This document shows, piece after piece, positions 55,852 through 63,708 of a stretch of 64,000 nucleotides of DNA (positions are counted from its first letter, which is position 1; each line of letters begins with the position of its first letter). The notes below the pieces were generated by a model. The model was not told where the DNA came from. It saw nothing but the letters and a program-made list of their open reading frames with translations, and ran no database searches. Source of the stretch: Maridesulfovibrio hydrothermalis AM13 = DSM 14728 (GTDB lineage: Bacteria > Desulfobacterota > Desulfovibrionia > Desulfovibrionales > Desulfovibrionaceae); NCBI RefSeq assembly GCF_000331025.1, contig NC_020055.1, positions 1,954,370-2,018,369 on the forward strand. The letters are read 5' to 3'. The translations under genes and the position numbers were made by a program.

Positions 55852-57639
55852 TTATGATTGCAGTGGGTTCTTTTCCTCAAAATCTTCAAGCTGGGTGGTA
55901 ATAAGGGTTTCCGTATCGATGACCAGAGCATCTTTTTCACCCATCATGCCGAACCCGAGGATCGGGAGTCTGTACAGTGTGTTAACAGGCAGAGTAAATC
56001 CTGTGACCACTGCTTTCTGCTGGCGCAGGACTTCATCTACTAAAATAGCGGCGCAAATATCACCCATTTTTACCAGAATGGTTTTAGGTGTAATATTGTC
56101 ATCAGGCGGCGGGAAGTCGAAAATTTTGTGCATGCGGATCAGGGGGTGTACTTTACCGCGGATGGATACTGTTTCGCGTCCGTCGGGCAGTTCGGTGAAT
56201 TCCTTGGCAACTGGCTCATATACTTCAAGCACTTCACGGCTGGGGAAGATAAATGTCTCTGTGCCGATGGTGGTGATCAGGGCATCCACAATGCCTTCAT
56301 TCACAGAGCGGCTGAGTGGAATGGTGATGGTGAAAGTGGAGCCTTCTCCCAGTTTGCTTTTGATGGAAATTTTTCCATCAAGGGTATTATGGACGGCCGT
56401 TACGACTGCGTCCATGCCGACACCGCGACCTGAAATATCTGTCACTGCACTGGCTGTGGAGAAACCTGACTGCAGGATGAATTCGTATATTTCCTCTTCA
56501 GTATATTTTTTATCAGGATCAGCGATTCCTTTTTCAATGGCTTTGCTGAGCAGTATGTCTGCATCAAGGCCTTTGCCGTCGTCCACGATTTCAATATAGG
56601 CGAATTCACCTTTCCTTGATGCGTTCAGGGTGACGCTTCCCACTTCATCTTTACCGAACATCTGGCGGTCTTCAGTGGACTCAATACCGTGGTCCAATGC
56701 ATTTCTAAGCAGGTGAACCAGTGGTTCGTTCAGGCATTCCACAATAGTTTTATCCAGAGCCAGATCTTCGCCGCTGATGGTGAATTTAATGCGTTTATTA
56801 AGTTTTTGCGATGTGCTTTTTACAAGCCGGTGCATGGGCATAAAAATTTGCTTGAGCGGAACCAGTCTGATTTCATCCATTTCTGATTGCAGGTTGCGGA
56901 TAACCTTATCAAGTTCAGACAGGCTGGATGAAATTTTGGAAATATTATCGACTTTGGTCTGCGCAATGACTGCGTAAGTGACCATAAGTTTTCCCACCAG
57001 TTCAATCAGTGAATCCAGCTGCTGAGTGGAAACCCGGATGGATGAAATAGCCTGCGGCTCTTTCATTTTATCTTTGGCAGGGTGGACTGCTTTAGATTTT
57101 TCTTCGGTTTTGATTTCTTTTGCTGCTACCGGCTCAGGGGAATTTTCCGGTATTTCAGGTTCTTCACCGTGATACTTGCTGAGTTTTTCGTCAGGAGCTG
57201 TGGATGGAACCTCACAGGCTTCAAGCTTTTCCCAGCCATCAGCTTCATTTGGTTCGCCGCCATCCATTGCCTCTATTTCGGCAATCATTTCTATCTCAGC
57301 CTCAGTCATTTCAGTCTGAGAGGAACTTTTTGGAGCTGCATTTTCTTCTGATTTGCGTGAATCAAGTTTGACTCCGCCTTGATCAAGGAGGCCGCCGATG
57401 CAGTAATAAAACTTTTTCTGAGCTTCGGTTATTTCAAGCAGGGCGGTGATCAGGTCGGGGGTGACGGGGGTGATACCGTCGGTCAGCATATCCATAAGAG
57501 CAATGACTTGAGCTGAGGGCATTTTTACATGCTCAATACCAAGGTCTTGCAGGATGGAGTTGATATCTCCTGTGCCGTGTTCAAGATTGGTAATTGATTC
57601 TTGAAGCTGGCTTATGCAACTGGAAATACTGTCTTTCAT
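55852..57639 (-). CDS. cheA: Chemotaxis histidine kinase CheA lacking a functional phosphotransfer (P1) domain
   Basis: 595 residues. The N-terminal 80 residues are helical but have no H-x2-K-G phosphorylation motif; then an acidic linker (80-185), a P3 dimerisation helix pair (QQLDSLIELVGKLMVTYAVI), a P4 kinase with N-box EPLVHLLRNALDHGIES, DDGKGLD and GRGVGMDAV, and a CheW-like P5 (440-590). Upstream on the same strand lies a separate Hpt protein, so the phosphorylated His is supplied in trans. ATG 57639, 18 nt after the hpt stop. Confidence 0.9.
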   Translation of the reverse strand: MKDSISSCISQLQESITNLEHGTGDINSILQDLGIEHVKMPSAQVIALMDMLTDGITPVTPDLITALLEITEAQKKFYYCIGGLLDQGGVKLDSRKSEENAAPKSSSQTEMTEAEIEMIAEIEAMDGGEPNEADGWEKLEACEVPSTAPDEKLSKYHGEEPEIPENSPEPVAAKEIKTEEKSKAVHPAKDKMKEPQAISSIRVSTQQLDSLIELVGKLMVTYAVIAQTKVDNISKISSSLSELDKVIRNLQSEMDEIRLVPLKQIFMPMHRLVKSTSQKLNKRIKFTISGEDLALDKTIVECLNEPLVHLLRNALDHGIESTEDRQMFGKDEVGSVTLNASRKGEFAYIEIVDDGKGLDADILLSKAIEKGIADPDKKYTEEEIYEFILQSGFSTASAVTDISGRGVGMDAVVTAVHNTLDGKISIKSKLGEGSTFTITIPLSRSVNEGIVDALITTIGTETFIFPSREVLEVYEPVAKEFTELPDGRETVSIRGKVHPLIRMHKIFDFPPPDDNITPKTILVKMGDICAAILVDEVLRQQKAVVTGFTLPVNTLYRLPILGFGMMGEKDALVIDTETLITTQLEDFEEKNPLQS

Positions 57640-57657
57640 TATCCGCTCGCTCCGGCG

Positions 57658-58383
57658 TTACTTGAGAAAAGAGTCTCTGCTGTCAAATACATTCAGGTAT
57701 CTCTGGAAACCCCATGAATAAAAAGTGCTTGTGCAGTGAGTGTTCATTCCGGTTATTCCGATTTCATGGGAGTCGGAATAGGAGGCAATGAGTTCAAAAA
57801 GTGAAGAAGCAACTGACATTGAAATTCCGAAATCAAATAGAATACGTTTGCCTTCAGCAATTGTTTTTAGGGTATCATCGACTATACCAAGTTGTTGCTG
57901 GTTGTACAGTCTTCTTGCTTTTAAGGTGATAATTTCTGCATCAGGCAATGACTCAAGCTCAACGGGGGTATCACTTTCAGCCCCTATACCTTCAGTTTTT
58001 TTTCCTTCGCCTGCGAGTCTTTTCTCAATATCGTCGGTGGCTGCTTTGTCATAGCTGCCTGATTCGCGAAGCTGTTCAATGATCATGAAAATCGAGTTAA
58101 CAGATTCAATGGCGAGGGCAATCTGCGGAAGTTTATGTGCAATTTCCCCAGCTTGCATCTTTTTCAGGAAACTTTCAACTTTGTGGGTGAAGGTTGAAGC
58201 CGGTTCAAATCCGGACATGAATCCGGTAACGCCTTTGATGGTATGCAGCGGACGTGAGAGAGCCTCAATGCCTTCCTCAATGCACTGTTCATCCAGCAGA
58301 TCAATACCCTCTAAAACCTGAGGATAGTATTTATCGTTTACTTCCGAGAAGAATTCTTCAATTAATGAATCATCATCACTCAT
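57658..58383 (-). CDS. Hpt phosphotransfer protein with a C-terminal STAS-like domain
   Basis: 241 residues. An N-terminal Hpt domain (1-110) has RPLHTIKGVTGF, with the phosphorylated His at residue 47. A linker and a C-terminal domain (about 145-240: KRILFDFGISMSVASSLFEL; IGITGMNTHCTSTFYSWGFQ; YLNVFDS) have the strand-helix pattern and closing motif of STAS domains. It is expected to take phosphate from the neighbouring CheA and pass it to CheY. The STAS match is by eye. Lies between cheY and cheA. Confidence 0.82.
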   Translation of the reverse strand: MSDDDSLIEEFFSEVNDKYYPQVLEGIDLLDEQCIEEGIEALSRPLHTIKGVTGFMSGFEPASTFTHKVESFLKKMQAGEIAHKLPQIALAIESVNSIFMIIEQLRESGSYDKAATDDIEKRLAGEGKKTEGIGAESDTPVELESLPDAEIITLKARRLYNQQQLGIVDDTLKTIAEGKRILFDFGISMSVASSLFELIASYSDSHEIGITGMNTHCTSTFYSWGFQRYLNVFDSRDSFLK

Positions 58384-58407
58384 ATAAATACTCCCCTAAA
58401 CGGGATT

Positions 58408-58803
58408 TTATTTTTGCAGCAGTCCGATTTTTTCAAGTTCTTCATATAATTTTTCTCTGATGACCGGCTTAACAATGTATGCAGAAGCTCCTGCATCATG
58501 AAAAGAACGGATTACGGTTTTTGCATCATCAAGAGCGGTGGTCATTATCACTTTGACGTTATTATCAACGTTATTTGATTTTTCATATTTTCTGATGGCT
58601 TCAAGGGCACTTATCCCGTCAAGTTCCGGCATCATTATATCCATAAAGATAACAGCGTAAGGATTATCTTCTTCATAAGCCATTATAAAGGCATCAACGG
58701 CTTCCTTTCCGTTAACAACAATATCGATTTCAAAAAGTGGAGCCATAAAGGTTGATAACAATTTTCTGCCAACAAATTCGTCTTCTGCAATCAGCGCGCG
58801 CAT
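58408..58803 (-). CDS. cheY: CheY-like single-domain response regulator
   Basis: 131 residues from ATG 58803 (GGAGG 5 nt upstream). Receiver residues: acidic pair in IAEDEF, phospho-Asp in VIFMDIMMPELDG, Thr in IMTTALDD and Lys in YIVKPV. First gene of the cheY-hpt-cheA unit and its likely output. The RR could act on the flagellar switch or another target. Confidence 0.9.
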   Translation of the reverse strand: MRALIAEDEFVGRKLLSTFMAPLFEIDIVVNGKEAVDAFIMAYEEDNPYAVIFMDIMMPELDGISALEAIRKYEKSNNVDNNVKVIMTTALDDAKTVIRSFHDAGASAYIVKPVIREKLYEELEKIGLLQK

Positions 58804-58960
58804 CAATGCCTCCGTAAATAATATATCATCTTAGATAATTACATATCATGTTTTTTTTGGCAATTAAATGTGAATATCCTTAGTATAAAATTTGTATCTT
58901 AAATTACAAGCTTTACCACTTCCCTTGCAAACTCTTAAAAGGTTGAGTACCTAAATCGCC

Positions 58961-61291: not shown

Positions 61292-61490
61292 AATTTTCTC
61301 CGGCTTTTCGTGCAGTAAGTGTTCTTTCATTATGACAAACTTCAGATAAAGTCATGCCGGATTAATACAAATTTAGTGTATCATATATATAATGTGTTTT
61401 CGGACACAGCAAAAGATGCTGGACAAAGTGTATAAAGCTGGTATTAATAATCGCTCTGTACGCCTTAGTACAAAATCGGAGTTAATACGC

Positions 61491-62099
61491 ATGAGTGAAC
61501 AGGAAGCTGTAAATATAATAAAGACTGGAGGGGTACTTGTTTACCCTACCGAAACCCTTTTTGCCATTGGGGCTGATGCCAGTGACGAAAGGGCGGCAAA
61601 TCGTGTTGCCCGTATCAAGGGGCGTCCGGTTTCCAAGCCATTACCGCTTATTATCGGCAGTATGGAGCAGCTTGATCTTGTCACTGATTTTATTTCTTCT
61701 GAAATTTTGAAACTTGCAAAGAGTTTCTGGCCCGGACCTCTATCAATTCTGATCAAAGCCCGCGGGGAACTGCCTTCTGCTGTAAAGGATTCCAGAGGAT
61801 ACACTTCTGTGCGCTGGACTGATCATCCTTTAGCCTGTGCATTGTGTATAAAGTCCAGAACGGCGCTTATTGCCACCAGTGCCAATATGAGCGGTAAGCA
61901 GGCTGTGGCAAAAGTTGAAGATCTTGATAACGAGTTGACTGTAATGGCTGAGGGTGTTTTTGATGGCTGTCCCGGACCGAAGGGCGGTAGTCCTTCAACC
62001 GTAGTAGAGCCGCTTTGCGGCGGGAAAGTCAGGGTTTTGCGCGATGGAGTTATCTCACGCAAGACTTTAATCCGGGCTGGGTTTGCTGTTGTGCGTTAG
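61491..62099 (+). CDS. tsaC: L-threonylcarbamoyladenylate synthase (TsaC/Sua5 family)
   Basis: About 202 residues from ATG 61491 (CGGAG upstream); the frame opens earlier at 61392 with sequence foreign to the family. VLVYPTETLFAIGADA, the KGRPVSKPLPLII loop, SFWPGPLSILIKA, SVRWTDHPLA and IATSANMSG identify the YrdC fold. It makes threonylcarbamoyl-AMP for t6A37 in tRNA, the substrate later used by MtaB (41 kb). Confidence 0.92.
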   Translation: MSEQEAVNIIKTGGVLVYPTETLFAIGADASDERAANRVARIKGRPVSKPLPLIIGSMEQLDLVTDFISSEILKLAKSFWPGPLSILIKARGELPSAVKDSRGYTSVRWTDHPLACALCIKSRTALIATSANMSGKQAVAKVEDLDNELTVMAEGVFDGCPGPKGGSPSTVVEPLCGGKVRVLRDGVISRKTLIRAGFAVVR

Positions 62100-62328: not shown

Positions 62329-62396
62329 GGTATAAAATATTTTACCGGCATCCCAGCTTTTTAGCGGAAAAATCTGACAGGGTATAAAAATTTGTA
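62329..62396 (+). promoter_or_regulatory. Conserved upstream activator block, unit 1
   Basis: Contains a near-palindrome GGTATAAAATATTTTACC (62329-62346), CCCAG, TTAGCG and GGGTATAAAAA (62380-62390). TATAAAA occurs twice, 52 bp apart, about five helical turns. The block is 90-157 bp upstream of the -24 element, the usual place for a sigma-54 activator. Confidence 0.6.
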
Positions 62397-62485
62397 TTTT
62401 ATTTGGAGATTAGTTGAAAAAGATATTCGTGTAATAGCTTAGTAATTTTAATGGGTTATGCAGGGTTTGAATGCTTTTTTATTTT

Positions 62486-62503
62486 TGGCACGCCAGTTGC
62501 TAT
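62486..62503 (+). promoter_or_regulatory. Consensus sigma-54 promoter, unit 1
   Basis: TGGCACG-CCAG-TTGCTAT fully matches TGGCACG-N4-TTGCW, with GG and GC 10 bp apart. Predicted start of transcription is about 62512. Confidence 0.85.
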
Positions 62504-62511
62504 ATCTAAAT

Positions 62512-62585
62512 TACCTTCATTCTTTTGTTGAACTAATATCGAAAACAGGCCTCGTCAGAACCAACTGACGGGGCCTTTTCGATTT
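62512..62585 (+). ncRNA. Putative sigma-54-dependent small RNA 1
   Basis: About 74 nt from the predicted start to a T-run. The first 36 nt (62512-62547) are identical in unit 2, unstructured by eye and pyrimidine-rich at the 5' end (ACCTTC could pair with GAAGGU-like ribosome sites). A 12-bp stem (62547-62558 with 62565-62576, loop of 6) follows, ending in TTTT. Flanking ATCGAAAA/TTTTCGAT can extend the stem. No reading frame is preserved between the copies. Family not recognised. Confidence 0.72.
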
Positions 62586-62612
62586 TCTAAAGCTGAAATG
62601 GAATGAATTGGG

Positions 62613-62680
62613 TGTATAAAATATTTAACCCGTAACCCAGTTAATTAGCGAAAAAGGCTAACGGGGTATAAAAAGTTGTA
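62613..62680 (+). promoter_or_regulatory. Conserved upstream activator block, unit 2
   Basis: Same anchors as unit 1 at an offset of 284 bp, with TATAAAA at 62615 and 62667. TTAGC-GAAAAAG-GCTAA (62645-62661) also forms an inverted repeat here. Distance to its promoter is the same as in unit 1. Confidence 0.6.
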
Positions 62681-62769
62681 CTTTTTTTTGATTGCTCGGG
62701 GAAACGTGTCTTGAGTGATAATTGTTGAATTACAGTATGTTAAGCTCTTTCTGGCGCTGTATTTATTTT

Positions 62770-62787
62770 TGGCACGCCAGTTGCTAT
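62770..62787 (+). promoter_or_regulatory. Consensus sigma-54 promoter, unit 2
   Basis: The same 18 bases as in unit 1 (TGGCACG-CCAG-TTGCTAT), preceded by the same T-rich stretch. Predicted start about 62796. Confidence 0.85.
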
Positions 62788-62795
62788 GTTTAAAC

Positions 62796-62870
62796 TACCT
62801 TCATTCTTTTGTTGAACTAATATCGAAAACAAGCCCTGCCAGTCCCAACTGGCGGGGCTTTTCGATTTTT
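62796..62870 (+). ncRNA. Putative sigma-54-dependent small RNA 2
   Basis: About 75 nt. The 36-nt 5' part (62796-62831) is identical to RNA 1. The terminator stem (62832-62843 with 62848-62859, 4-nt loop, then TTTTCGATTTTT) has different bases from RNA 1 but full pairing, so changes are compensatory. A 62-codon frame overlapping it (62715-62903) is absent in unit 1 and is not taken as a gene. Confidence 0.72.
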
Positions 62871-62879
62871 AAGGGGGGA

Positions 62880-63228
62880 GTGCTGTCTGTTACGTCTCTT
62901 TAAGACATAAAAATACAGATTCTGATTTTTCCCTGTTTTGTAAAGATGAAACGAAGTCGTCACCAGAACGCCGATGAATTCTGTGTTTATGTGTTGTAGT
63001 CTTATCTTTCACGGCTAATTTTAAGTTTATAATTCTACTCTTGTTACTACCAAAAAACGCAGTTTAAATTATTGAACTTAATTTGGAGTCTTTTGAAACG
63101 AAAAACGGCTGGAAAAAAAATCGTATTCTCTTGTCATGAAACGGCATTCAAGGTAATGATCATAAATGATTGTCAGTTGTATTCATGTTTAACGGGTTTA
63201 CGTAATATTAAATTCAAGGCTGTTCTTT
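62880..63228. other. Non-coding region between RNA unit 2 and the NUDIX gene
   Basis: About 350 bp of AT-rich sequence. I see no supported gene, no clear promoter and no strong hairpin. It should contain the promoter for the NUDIX/glgA unit. Confidence 0.5.
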
Positions 63229-63708
63229 ATGGTTCTCTCAAAACCCTGTCCTCATTGCGGAAAGGATGTAGTCCATTACCGCAATCCTGTTCCTACTGTT
63301 GATATAGTTATATATGATCCTGTGCGCGGTGTTGTTTTGATTGAACGGAAAAATCCTCCGCTCGGCTGGGCGCTGCCGGGAGGGTTTGTTGATTACGGGG
63401 AAACTCTTGAACATGCAGCAGTGCGTGAAGCTAAAGAGGAAACAGGGCTTGAAGTAGTGCTTACCGGATTGGTCGGGGTTTACTCCATGCCTTGCAGAGA
63501 TGATAGGCAGCATACTATCAGTATAACATACAGTGCGGTAACCGGTGACCCGGAAAAGCTCATAGCCGGTGATGATGCCGGGGGGGCCGGATTTTTCAAG
63601 CTGGACGACCTGCCTGAACTTGTCTTTGATCATACAGACATTTTAAAAGATTTTTCATCAAATGTATTAAGGTTGCAAGCTCATGCCGCTATAGGCAATT
63701 CTGATTAA
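63229..63708 (+). CDS. NUDIX hydrolase with an N-terminal Cys pair
   Basis: 159 residues. The Nudix box [20 protein letters not shown] followed by ETGLEV is complete (G-x5-E-x7-R-E-x2-E-E-x-G). An N-terminal CPHCG half-knuckle resembles the zinc ribbon of NADH pyrophosphatase-type members, but a second Cys pair is missing. It hydrolyses a nucleoside diphosphate linked to another group; given the next gene (glgA), an ADP-sugar pyrophosphatase role is possible but unproven. AAGG lies 9 nt before ATG 63229. Confidence 0.87.

Follow-up and report, generated by a model that had tools for sequence, protein, structure and literature searches.

The window analysed here, a stretch of 64,000 nucleotides from Maridesulfovibrio hydrothermalis AM13, contains two tandem units that each have the layout of a small RNA gene under a sigma-54 promoter. 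The sequence TGGCACGCCAGTTGCT is found at 62486-62501 and again at 62770-62785, i.e., at a spacing of exactly 284 bp. From 5' to 3', each unit is composed of two AT-rich palindromes, a gap of 88 bp, a perfect sigma-54 promoter, a short RNA segment, and a terminator. The features are, in window coordinates:

61392-62099, plus strand: Sua5/YrdC gene, conserved left neighbour (context only)
62330-62345, no strand: distal palindrome of unit 1, GTATAAAATATTTTAC (putative upstream activator site 1)
62382-62397, no strand: proximal palindrome of unit 1, GTATAAAAATTTGTAT (putative upstream activator site 2), 52 bp from site 1
62486-62501, plus strand: sigma-54 promoter of unit 1, TGGCACG-N4-TTGCT, -24 GG at 62487-62488, -12 GC at 62499-62500
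62512-62586, plus strand: predicted sRNA of unit 1, about 75 nt, 5' end predicted
62513-62519, plus strand: core A of unit 1, ACCTTCA, invariant across 37 aligned units of the genus
62522-62531, plus strand: core B of unit 1, CTTTTGTTGA, exact complement of the ribosome-binding site TCAACAAAAG of a porin gene of the same genome
62546-62586, plus strand: intrinsic terminator of unit 1
62614-62629, no strand: distal palindrome of unit 2, GTATAAAATATTTAAC
62666-62681, no strand: proximal palindrome of unit 2, GTATAAAAAGTTGTAC, 52 bp from the distal one
62770-62785, plus strand: sigma-54 promoter of unit 2
62796-62870, plus strand: predicted sRNA of unit 2, about 75 nt
62797-62803, plus strand: core A of unit 2, ACCTTCA
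62806-62815, plus strand: core B of unit 2, CTTTTGTTGA
62831-62870, plus strand: intrinsic terminator of unit 2
63229-63708, plus strand: NUDIX hydrolase gene, conserved right neighbour, followed by glgA from 63739 (context only)

Twin units with a perfect promoter, an identical segment of 36 nt and a terminator had been described in an earlier note on this DNA, and all of these elements as well as the unit spacing were recovered; the "conserved upstream block" of that note corresponds to the two palindromes of each unit. The identical segment extends from TACCTTC through AAAACA. The transcription starts were predicted from the promoter geometry, i.e., from the spacing between -12 and +1: with the C of the -12 element at 62500 and 62784 the starts would lie at about 62512 and 62796, and, therefore, the predicted RNAs begin with UACCUUCAUUCUUUUGUUGA. 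By the same geometry the shared segment is predicted to be the 5' end of both RNAs. Both units terminate with a GC-rich stem and a T-run, and the predicted RNAs fold as the terminator hairpin (-29.3 and -29.6 kcal/mol), while the 5' end is nearly unpaired apart from a weak stem of 4 bp close to it. The earlier statement that no gene follows the units also held. A GTG frame of 62 aa on the plus strand (62715-62903) opens before unit 2, crosses all of it and looks spurious, and the plus-strand ORFs of at least 40 aa located 3' of unit 2 are a TTG frame of 76 aa at 63072 and then the NUDIX gene at 63229.

The exact pattern TGGCACG-N4-TTGCT has three occurrences in the whole genome of 3.7 Mb, and its reversed control has none. 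The third occurrence lies elsewhere (L001 1501, G000:C2:759236) and precedes an ORF starting with MAVREEVYG; it was rejected as a further copy of the family because no sRNA core is present downstream of it.

That the arrangement is beyond chance is supported by its recurrence in 37 units of 16 genomes of the genus, and by two copies in the 17th genome (G001). By similarity search, copies were detected in all genus genomes but one (16 of 17), and 41 other genomes yielded none. A covariance model, a check that the earlier note had proposed, was built from the 37 units of the 16 genomes. It also revealed the two copies in G001, so that two or three strong copies are retained in 17/17 genus genomes with scores of 88.6-121 bits, compared to at most 62.7 bits outside of the genus. 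This retention is in line with the proposed Qrr-like design of twin RpoN-type sRNA genes. All 37 aligned units have the same TGGCA and TGC in the promoter and the same core A, and a GG-N10-GC (-24/-12) promoter is located directly before the RNA, as is characteristic of the sigma-54-dependent sRNA class. ACCTTCA-NN-CTTTTG is present in 38 of 39 units, those of G001 included, and the exception is one copy in G013 with CCTTTG. The terminator varies, with changes on both sides in 8 of the 17 modelled pairs, and the terminators of G002 look replaced.

The gene order Sua5/YrdC - sRNAs - NUDIX - GlgA is found in 14 of 16 genus genomes. In G012 and G016 an additional ORF lies between the sRNA copies and the order is otherwise the standard one, in G003 one copy sits together with NUDIX and glgA at another place, and the locus in G014 lacks a called NUDIX ORF. 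Genes for CheA-like (HATPase, CheW), Hpt-like and receiver-domain proteins at 55852-58806, to the left of the locus, are conserved together with it in the genus. A pattern scan of genome contigs returned two records of the genus as well as one Neisseriaceae and one Marinomonas record (L105, L107), the latter two possibly by chance.

The restriction to the genus suggested by the similarity search was overturned by the covariance model, which detected divergent relatives across the order. Matches with E <= 0.01 were found in 178 of 348 genomes, a number that includes mostly uninspected genomes and a score to which promoter and terminator alone already contribute. Inspection by eye of 20 loci outside of the genus (19 genomes) revealed that 19 look genuine, i.e., have a sigma-54 promoter, a version of the core, e.g., TACCTTCCTTTCTTTTGCTGA, and a terminator; at the loci in G320 and G345 only part of the core is present, and the match in G119 (L157) was spurious. 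The complete order YrdC - sRNA - NUDIX - GlgA is present at L147, which belongs to another family of the order, and the neighbours in other genera are YrdC (L148), NUDIX (L144) or GlgA (L141, L156). Three model matches were found in G223, and two in G226, where a third copy is visible by eye at the YrdC-NUDIX site.

In the genus, each promoter is preceded by two copies of GTWNAAWWWWTTNWAC with a start-to-start distance of 52 bp in 37/37 units, and the pair ends 87-90 bp before the promoter. Outside of the genus (22 units) the spacing was 52-53 bp in 13 units, 40-41 bp in four, and different in five. Distances of 52 and 41 bp correspond to about five and about four helical turns. The mean pair score, with a maximum of 28, was 27.7 in the genus and 25.1 outside, compared to 20.5 (SD 1.7) in shuffled sequence. 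Such paired palindromes are the arrangement expected for an NtrC-type enhancer-binding protein, which would bind to them. Up to three neighbouring ORFs on either side of every one of the 20 outside loci were screened for GAFTGA-type motifs; this screen, which misses other motif variants, flagged no adjacent activator gene.

The set of candidate activators could be narrowed with the 1.4-Mb genome G201, which carries the sRNA and encodes only two clear sigma-54 activators; two marginal, partial PF00158 matches in long proteins (25.8 and 21.8 bits, cut-off 20.2) were judged to be Clp/Lon-type ATPases and set aside. One of the two activators has a GAFTEA motif, resembles DVU0151 and, according to a Pfam scan of its G172 ortholog, weakly matches Cache. 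It was rejected because six of 21 genomes, all of them carriers of the sRNA and one of them the own genome, lack it at E <= 1e-80. The other one is a response regulator with a GSFTGA motif and a Fis-type HTH, and it is the candidate because G201 has just two clear activators and the alternative is missing in the own genome. One clear ortholog was present in 21 of 22 genomes with 617-1030 bits, the next row reaching 397 bits; paralogs were set apart by score, and short rows reach 50% identity. The ortholog of the own genome (G000:C2:1116727-1118097) combines a receiver with a sigma-54 and a Fis-type domain and is preceded by a histidine kinase gene. The same GSFTGA motif is found in DVU3220 of D. 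vulgaris, one of two regulators reported to be conserved in all Desulfovibrio examined, which had neither DAP-chip data nor a motif (PMC3333781, PMC4641369). The activator is probably the order-wide GSFTGA response regulator that resembles, and is probably orthologous to, DVU3220.

Another enhancer-binding protein might activate the sRNA genes instead, e.g., a DVU1419-like envelope-stress regulator, with the DVU3220-like protein conserved for a different reason, and this is a serious contender with slightly less than even odds. DVU3220 was tied by EMSA to an ammonium-transport operon and was assigned to nitrogen (PMC3333781), and envelope stress as well as a ncRNA are listed for DVU1419 (PMC4641369). 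In addition, a pattern scan showed no palindrome in the flanks of the regulator gene in four genomes, and no ortholog of the regulator was found in the 70-contig assembly of G172, an sRNA carrier closely related to G201. Against this stands that the sRNA is retained in G201, whose only two clear activators include one that is missing from the own genome.

The palindromes also led to a candidate target. A search of the own genome resulted in 10 matches, compared to four in the reversed control. They fall within both sRNA units, at two scattered positions, and in a cluster of three that separates uvrC (named by eye) from the gene of an outer-membrane protein. These searches carry background, and several matches of a further search lie in genes. 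In G044 an exact palindrome, GTTCAAAAATTTGTAC, precedes a purM-like gene (L207 1501, by eye). The protein encoded beside the three-palindrome cluster is a DESULF_POR1 porin (NCBIfam NF033939, 545.9 bits, cut-off 250), which was, therefore, reached via the palindromes and not via RNA matching. Its leader contains TCAACAAAAG eight bases before the ATG, the exact complement of core B.

The porin is present in 17/17 genus genomes. Among the 21 genus copies the element is TCAGCAAAAG in 16 cases, TCAGCAATTGAAGG in two, TCAACAAAAG in the own genome, TTAGCAAAAG in G002, and TAAGCAAAAG in one fragment. In the own genome (RNA CTTTTGTTGA) and in G002 (RNA CTTTTGCTA) both the sRNA and the porin element are changed in a mirrored fashion, and we read the two forms as independent double changes. 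Palindromes were seen by eye in 16 of the 21 porin copies, and the remaining five retain some form of the pairing element. Outside of the genus, DESULF_POR1 genes were found in 17 of 18 genomes, and many of their leaders match the local sRNA, with lineage-specific changes in length. The odd form GCAAAAGCAATAG matches in G277 (15 nt) and G030 (13 nt), the GCAAAGAAAGG form in G096 gives a match of 17 nt, the match in G129 has 18 nt, and G311 has the odd leader form GCAAAAAAAGG. The genome without a DESULF_POR1 gene, G044, has a palindrome upstream of an outer-membrane-like gene without a Pfam match (L227 1500-1640), the leader of which shares 11 nt with the complement of the local sRNA at the ribosome-binding site.

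The matches were compared with permuted sRNA-porin pairs, using one genome per genus (15 genera) drawn from 20 genomes, three of the 17 of the genus and 17 from outside. The pairing energies of matched pairs averaged -23.8 to -24.6 kcal/mol compared to -18.0 to -18.7 kcal/mol (SD 0.8) for permuted pairs, the Watson-Crick runs 11.5-11.9 compared to 8.1-8.3. In each of four samplings, none of 20,000 permutations reached the matched energy or run length. The comparison was made without a 56-aa porin fragment (L104), a partial porin (L183), a porin with an uncertain start (L192), G223:C13, the second G223:C9 piece, and G044. Some outside porin starts are model starts without a checked ATG (e.g., L164, L177, L182, L185, L191, L194, L205), including those behind the match of G250 and the best match of G057. 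The own sRNA ranked first for the own porin in eight of 20 genomes, and poor own ranks were seen in G002 (8/18), G320 (9/20) and G110 (10/20). Independent drift should break the pairing and not yield such matches, and, therefore, the complementarity to the porin ribosome-binding site has been maintained by co-variation across the 15 genera, as is characteristic of a porin-silencing sRNA. Both units have the same predicted 5' end and thus the same target, as the earlier note had proposed, and with the porin a strong candidate for that target has emerged.

The core resembles an anti-Shine-Dalgarno sequence and should, therefore, pair to some degree with any ribosome-binding site. This raises the alternative that RpoN-dependent sRNAs act on many mRNAs via this core, the porin being one target among others or a fortuitous one. 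The pairing energy of the own porin is not outstanding among the sampled leaders: in the own genome, the value of the porin (-14.7) is equalled or surpassed by four of 76 other sampled genes, and that of the best porin by four of 239 control genes from 15 further genomes of the genus. This control covered 16 of the 17 genus genomes, the own sample comprised 77 genes including the porin, and the controls were the best of up to three starts. TCAACAAAAG occurs at 23 sites in the own genome, two of which are the sRNA genes, and among the remaining ones only that of the porin lies just before a start codon outside of a larger frame. Genus-wide, 3-18 matches of TCAGCAAAAG near an ATG were found per genome, compared to 0-6 for the reversed control. 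Among the listed matches that were examined, this exact 10-mer is located shortly before the start of CstA in G016 and G004 (L334 365, L335 365) and of a 4-alpha-glucanotransferase in G005 and G006 (L332 287, L333 295), in each case at a plausible distance, and the two genes are possible further targets, perhaps among others. Two other groups among the matches listed, each recurring in three genomes, were rejected because they lie inside a gene or lack a following open frame and precede no gene start. The 15-genus test of matched against permuted pairs, the two double changes in the genus and the palindromes shared with the porin promoter all single out the porin, so that this alternative appears less likely than not.

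The predicted 5' end of the porin mRNA, TGAAGGTA, is the complement of core A in the majority of the main copies in the genus (L084-L104). A single duplex through both cores was rejected because this site lies upstream, which is the wrong order for one continuous helix, and, thus, only core B is claimed for these leaders. In some other genera, GCGTCAGG adjoining TGAAGGTA recurs.

Complementarity by itself gives no sign of the regulatory effect, and pairing could activate the porin or protect its mRNA instead of silencing it. However, the predicted pairing covers or abuts the Shine-Dalgarno sequence, at most about 30 nt from the start codon, and known sRNAs that pair at such positions block initiation, which makes a positive effect improbable. 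Finally, the units could be leader parts of a NUDIX-glgA transcript, with which they share the strand and a conserved order, but a strong terminator closes each unit, no NUDIX gene is visible beside four of the copies, two each from G003 and G226, and the duplication comprised the whole unit including promoter and palindromes, and this reading can practically be dismissed.

Taken together, the best reading, to which we assign a probability of about 0.8 on the basis of comparative sequence analysis, is that the two units encode an RpoN-dependent, multi-copy, trans-acting sRNA that would block translation of the DESULF_POR1 porin. A phosphorylated response regulator of the NtrC-type enhancer-binding class would bind to both palindromes spaced by 52 bp and activate sigma-54 RNA polymerase at the -24/-12 element, and each unit would give rise to a trans-acting sRNA of about 75 nt. 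The unstructured 5' end, ACCUUCA-NN-CUUUUGUUGA in the own genome, would pair with the ribosome-binding site of the porin mRNA, thereby block the entry of ribosomes and lower porin synthesis, while the 3' hairpin would serve as the terminator. The two or three copies would sum to one regulatory dose.

The porin gene of the own genome has a palindrome 27 bp upstream of the sigma-70-like promoter TTGCCA-N17-TAGAAC, and the same DNA-binding protein probably acts also on this promoter. A palindrome at such a position is unusual for the NtrC-type activator class and counts against the best reading. A tentative extension, which we regard as somewhat less probable than not, is a two-layer porin switch across the order, in which a two-component system of the DVU3220 type would activate the sRNA and bind the sigma-70 promoter of the porin, forming a feed-forward loop. 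If this were true, a system so far seen as a nitrogen regulator would control a porin through both layers, and sRNA seed and porin ribosome-binding site would have drifted together across the whole order. DVU0799 of D. vulgaris presumably belongs to the DESULF_POR1 family like the candidate target. It is the major porin of that species and may matter for sulfate entry (PMC5686591), and, therefore, porin control bears on the management of the outer membrane in these bacteria.

The view of the earlier note that no such family is known in sulfate reducers has to be revised, because sigma-54-driven ncRNAs have been described for D. vulgaris. Four of them are counted (PMC4641369), ncRNAs are placed under DVU0653, DVU1419 and DVU2359 (PMC4641369, PMC3333781), and Dv_sRNA2 is placed under the response regulator DVU0679, its function being called unknown (PMC3333781). 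They resemble the present family in their sigma-54 promoters and enhancer-binding regulators and stem from the same bacterial order, but each is linked to another regulator, and the available descriptions contain no link to a porin. The D. vulgaris representative of the present family may be identical with one of these ncRNAs, the comparison with them being one of descriptions and not of sequences. The open-access literature, as far as its text was available, contains no mention of the present family or of a porin sRNA in sulfate reducers, nor of a trans-acting sRNA of a sulfate reducer with an experimentally assigned target, and "sRNA", "small RNA" and "porin" are absent from the available main text of an RNA-seq study of D. 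hydrothermalis (PMC4162548). Sigma-54-dependent ncRNAs are thus already known in sulfate reducers as a kind, and the present family and its target appear to be new. For an sRNA of a sulfate reducer, they supply a specific candidate target and a regulator prediction, together with an exact pairing accessible to point changes. The order-wide co-variation of sRNA and target preserves an unusually long natural record of the evolution of such pairs.

The Qrr RNAs of Vibrio are multi-copy, sigma-54-dependent sRNAs with shared pairing regions. The present family is alike in having several copies, a sigma-54 promoter and a common pairing region, and differs in its one main hairpin, its length of about 75 nt, its tandem copies and its candidate porin target. 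A kinship with Qrr was not borne out by Rfam: no family reached the gathering score anywhere in the window, and neither L004 nor any of 11 homologous loci matched the Qrr covariance model at E values up to 0.5. GlmY and GlmZ of enterobacteria also have sigma-54-dependent promoters, but their target and structure differ, and they, too, had no Rfam match here. The enterobacterial MicA, RybB, MicC, MicF and OmrA/B act on mRNAs of envelope proteins, which they silence by pairing close to the ribosome-binding site, in the case of RybB and OmrA/B via a 5'-terminal seed, and to our knowledge none of them has a sigma-54 promoter. They share with the present family the predicted pairing near the ribosome-binding site of an envelope protein, and they differ in the porin family and in the absence of an Rfam match here. 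By analogy, the proposed sRNA can, thus, be viewed as a cross of Qrr, with respect to promoter and copies, and of RybB/MicA, with respect to the 5' seed and the porin target.
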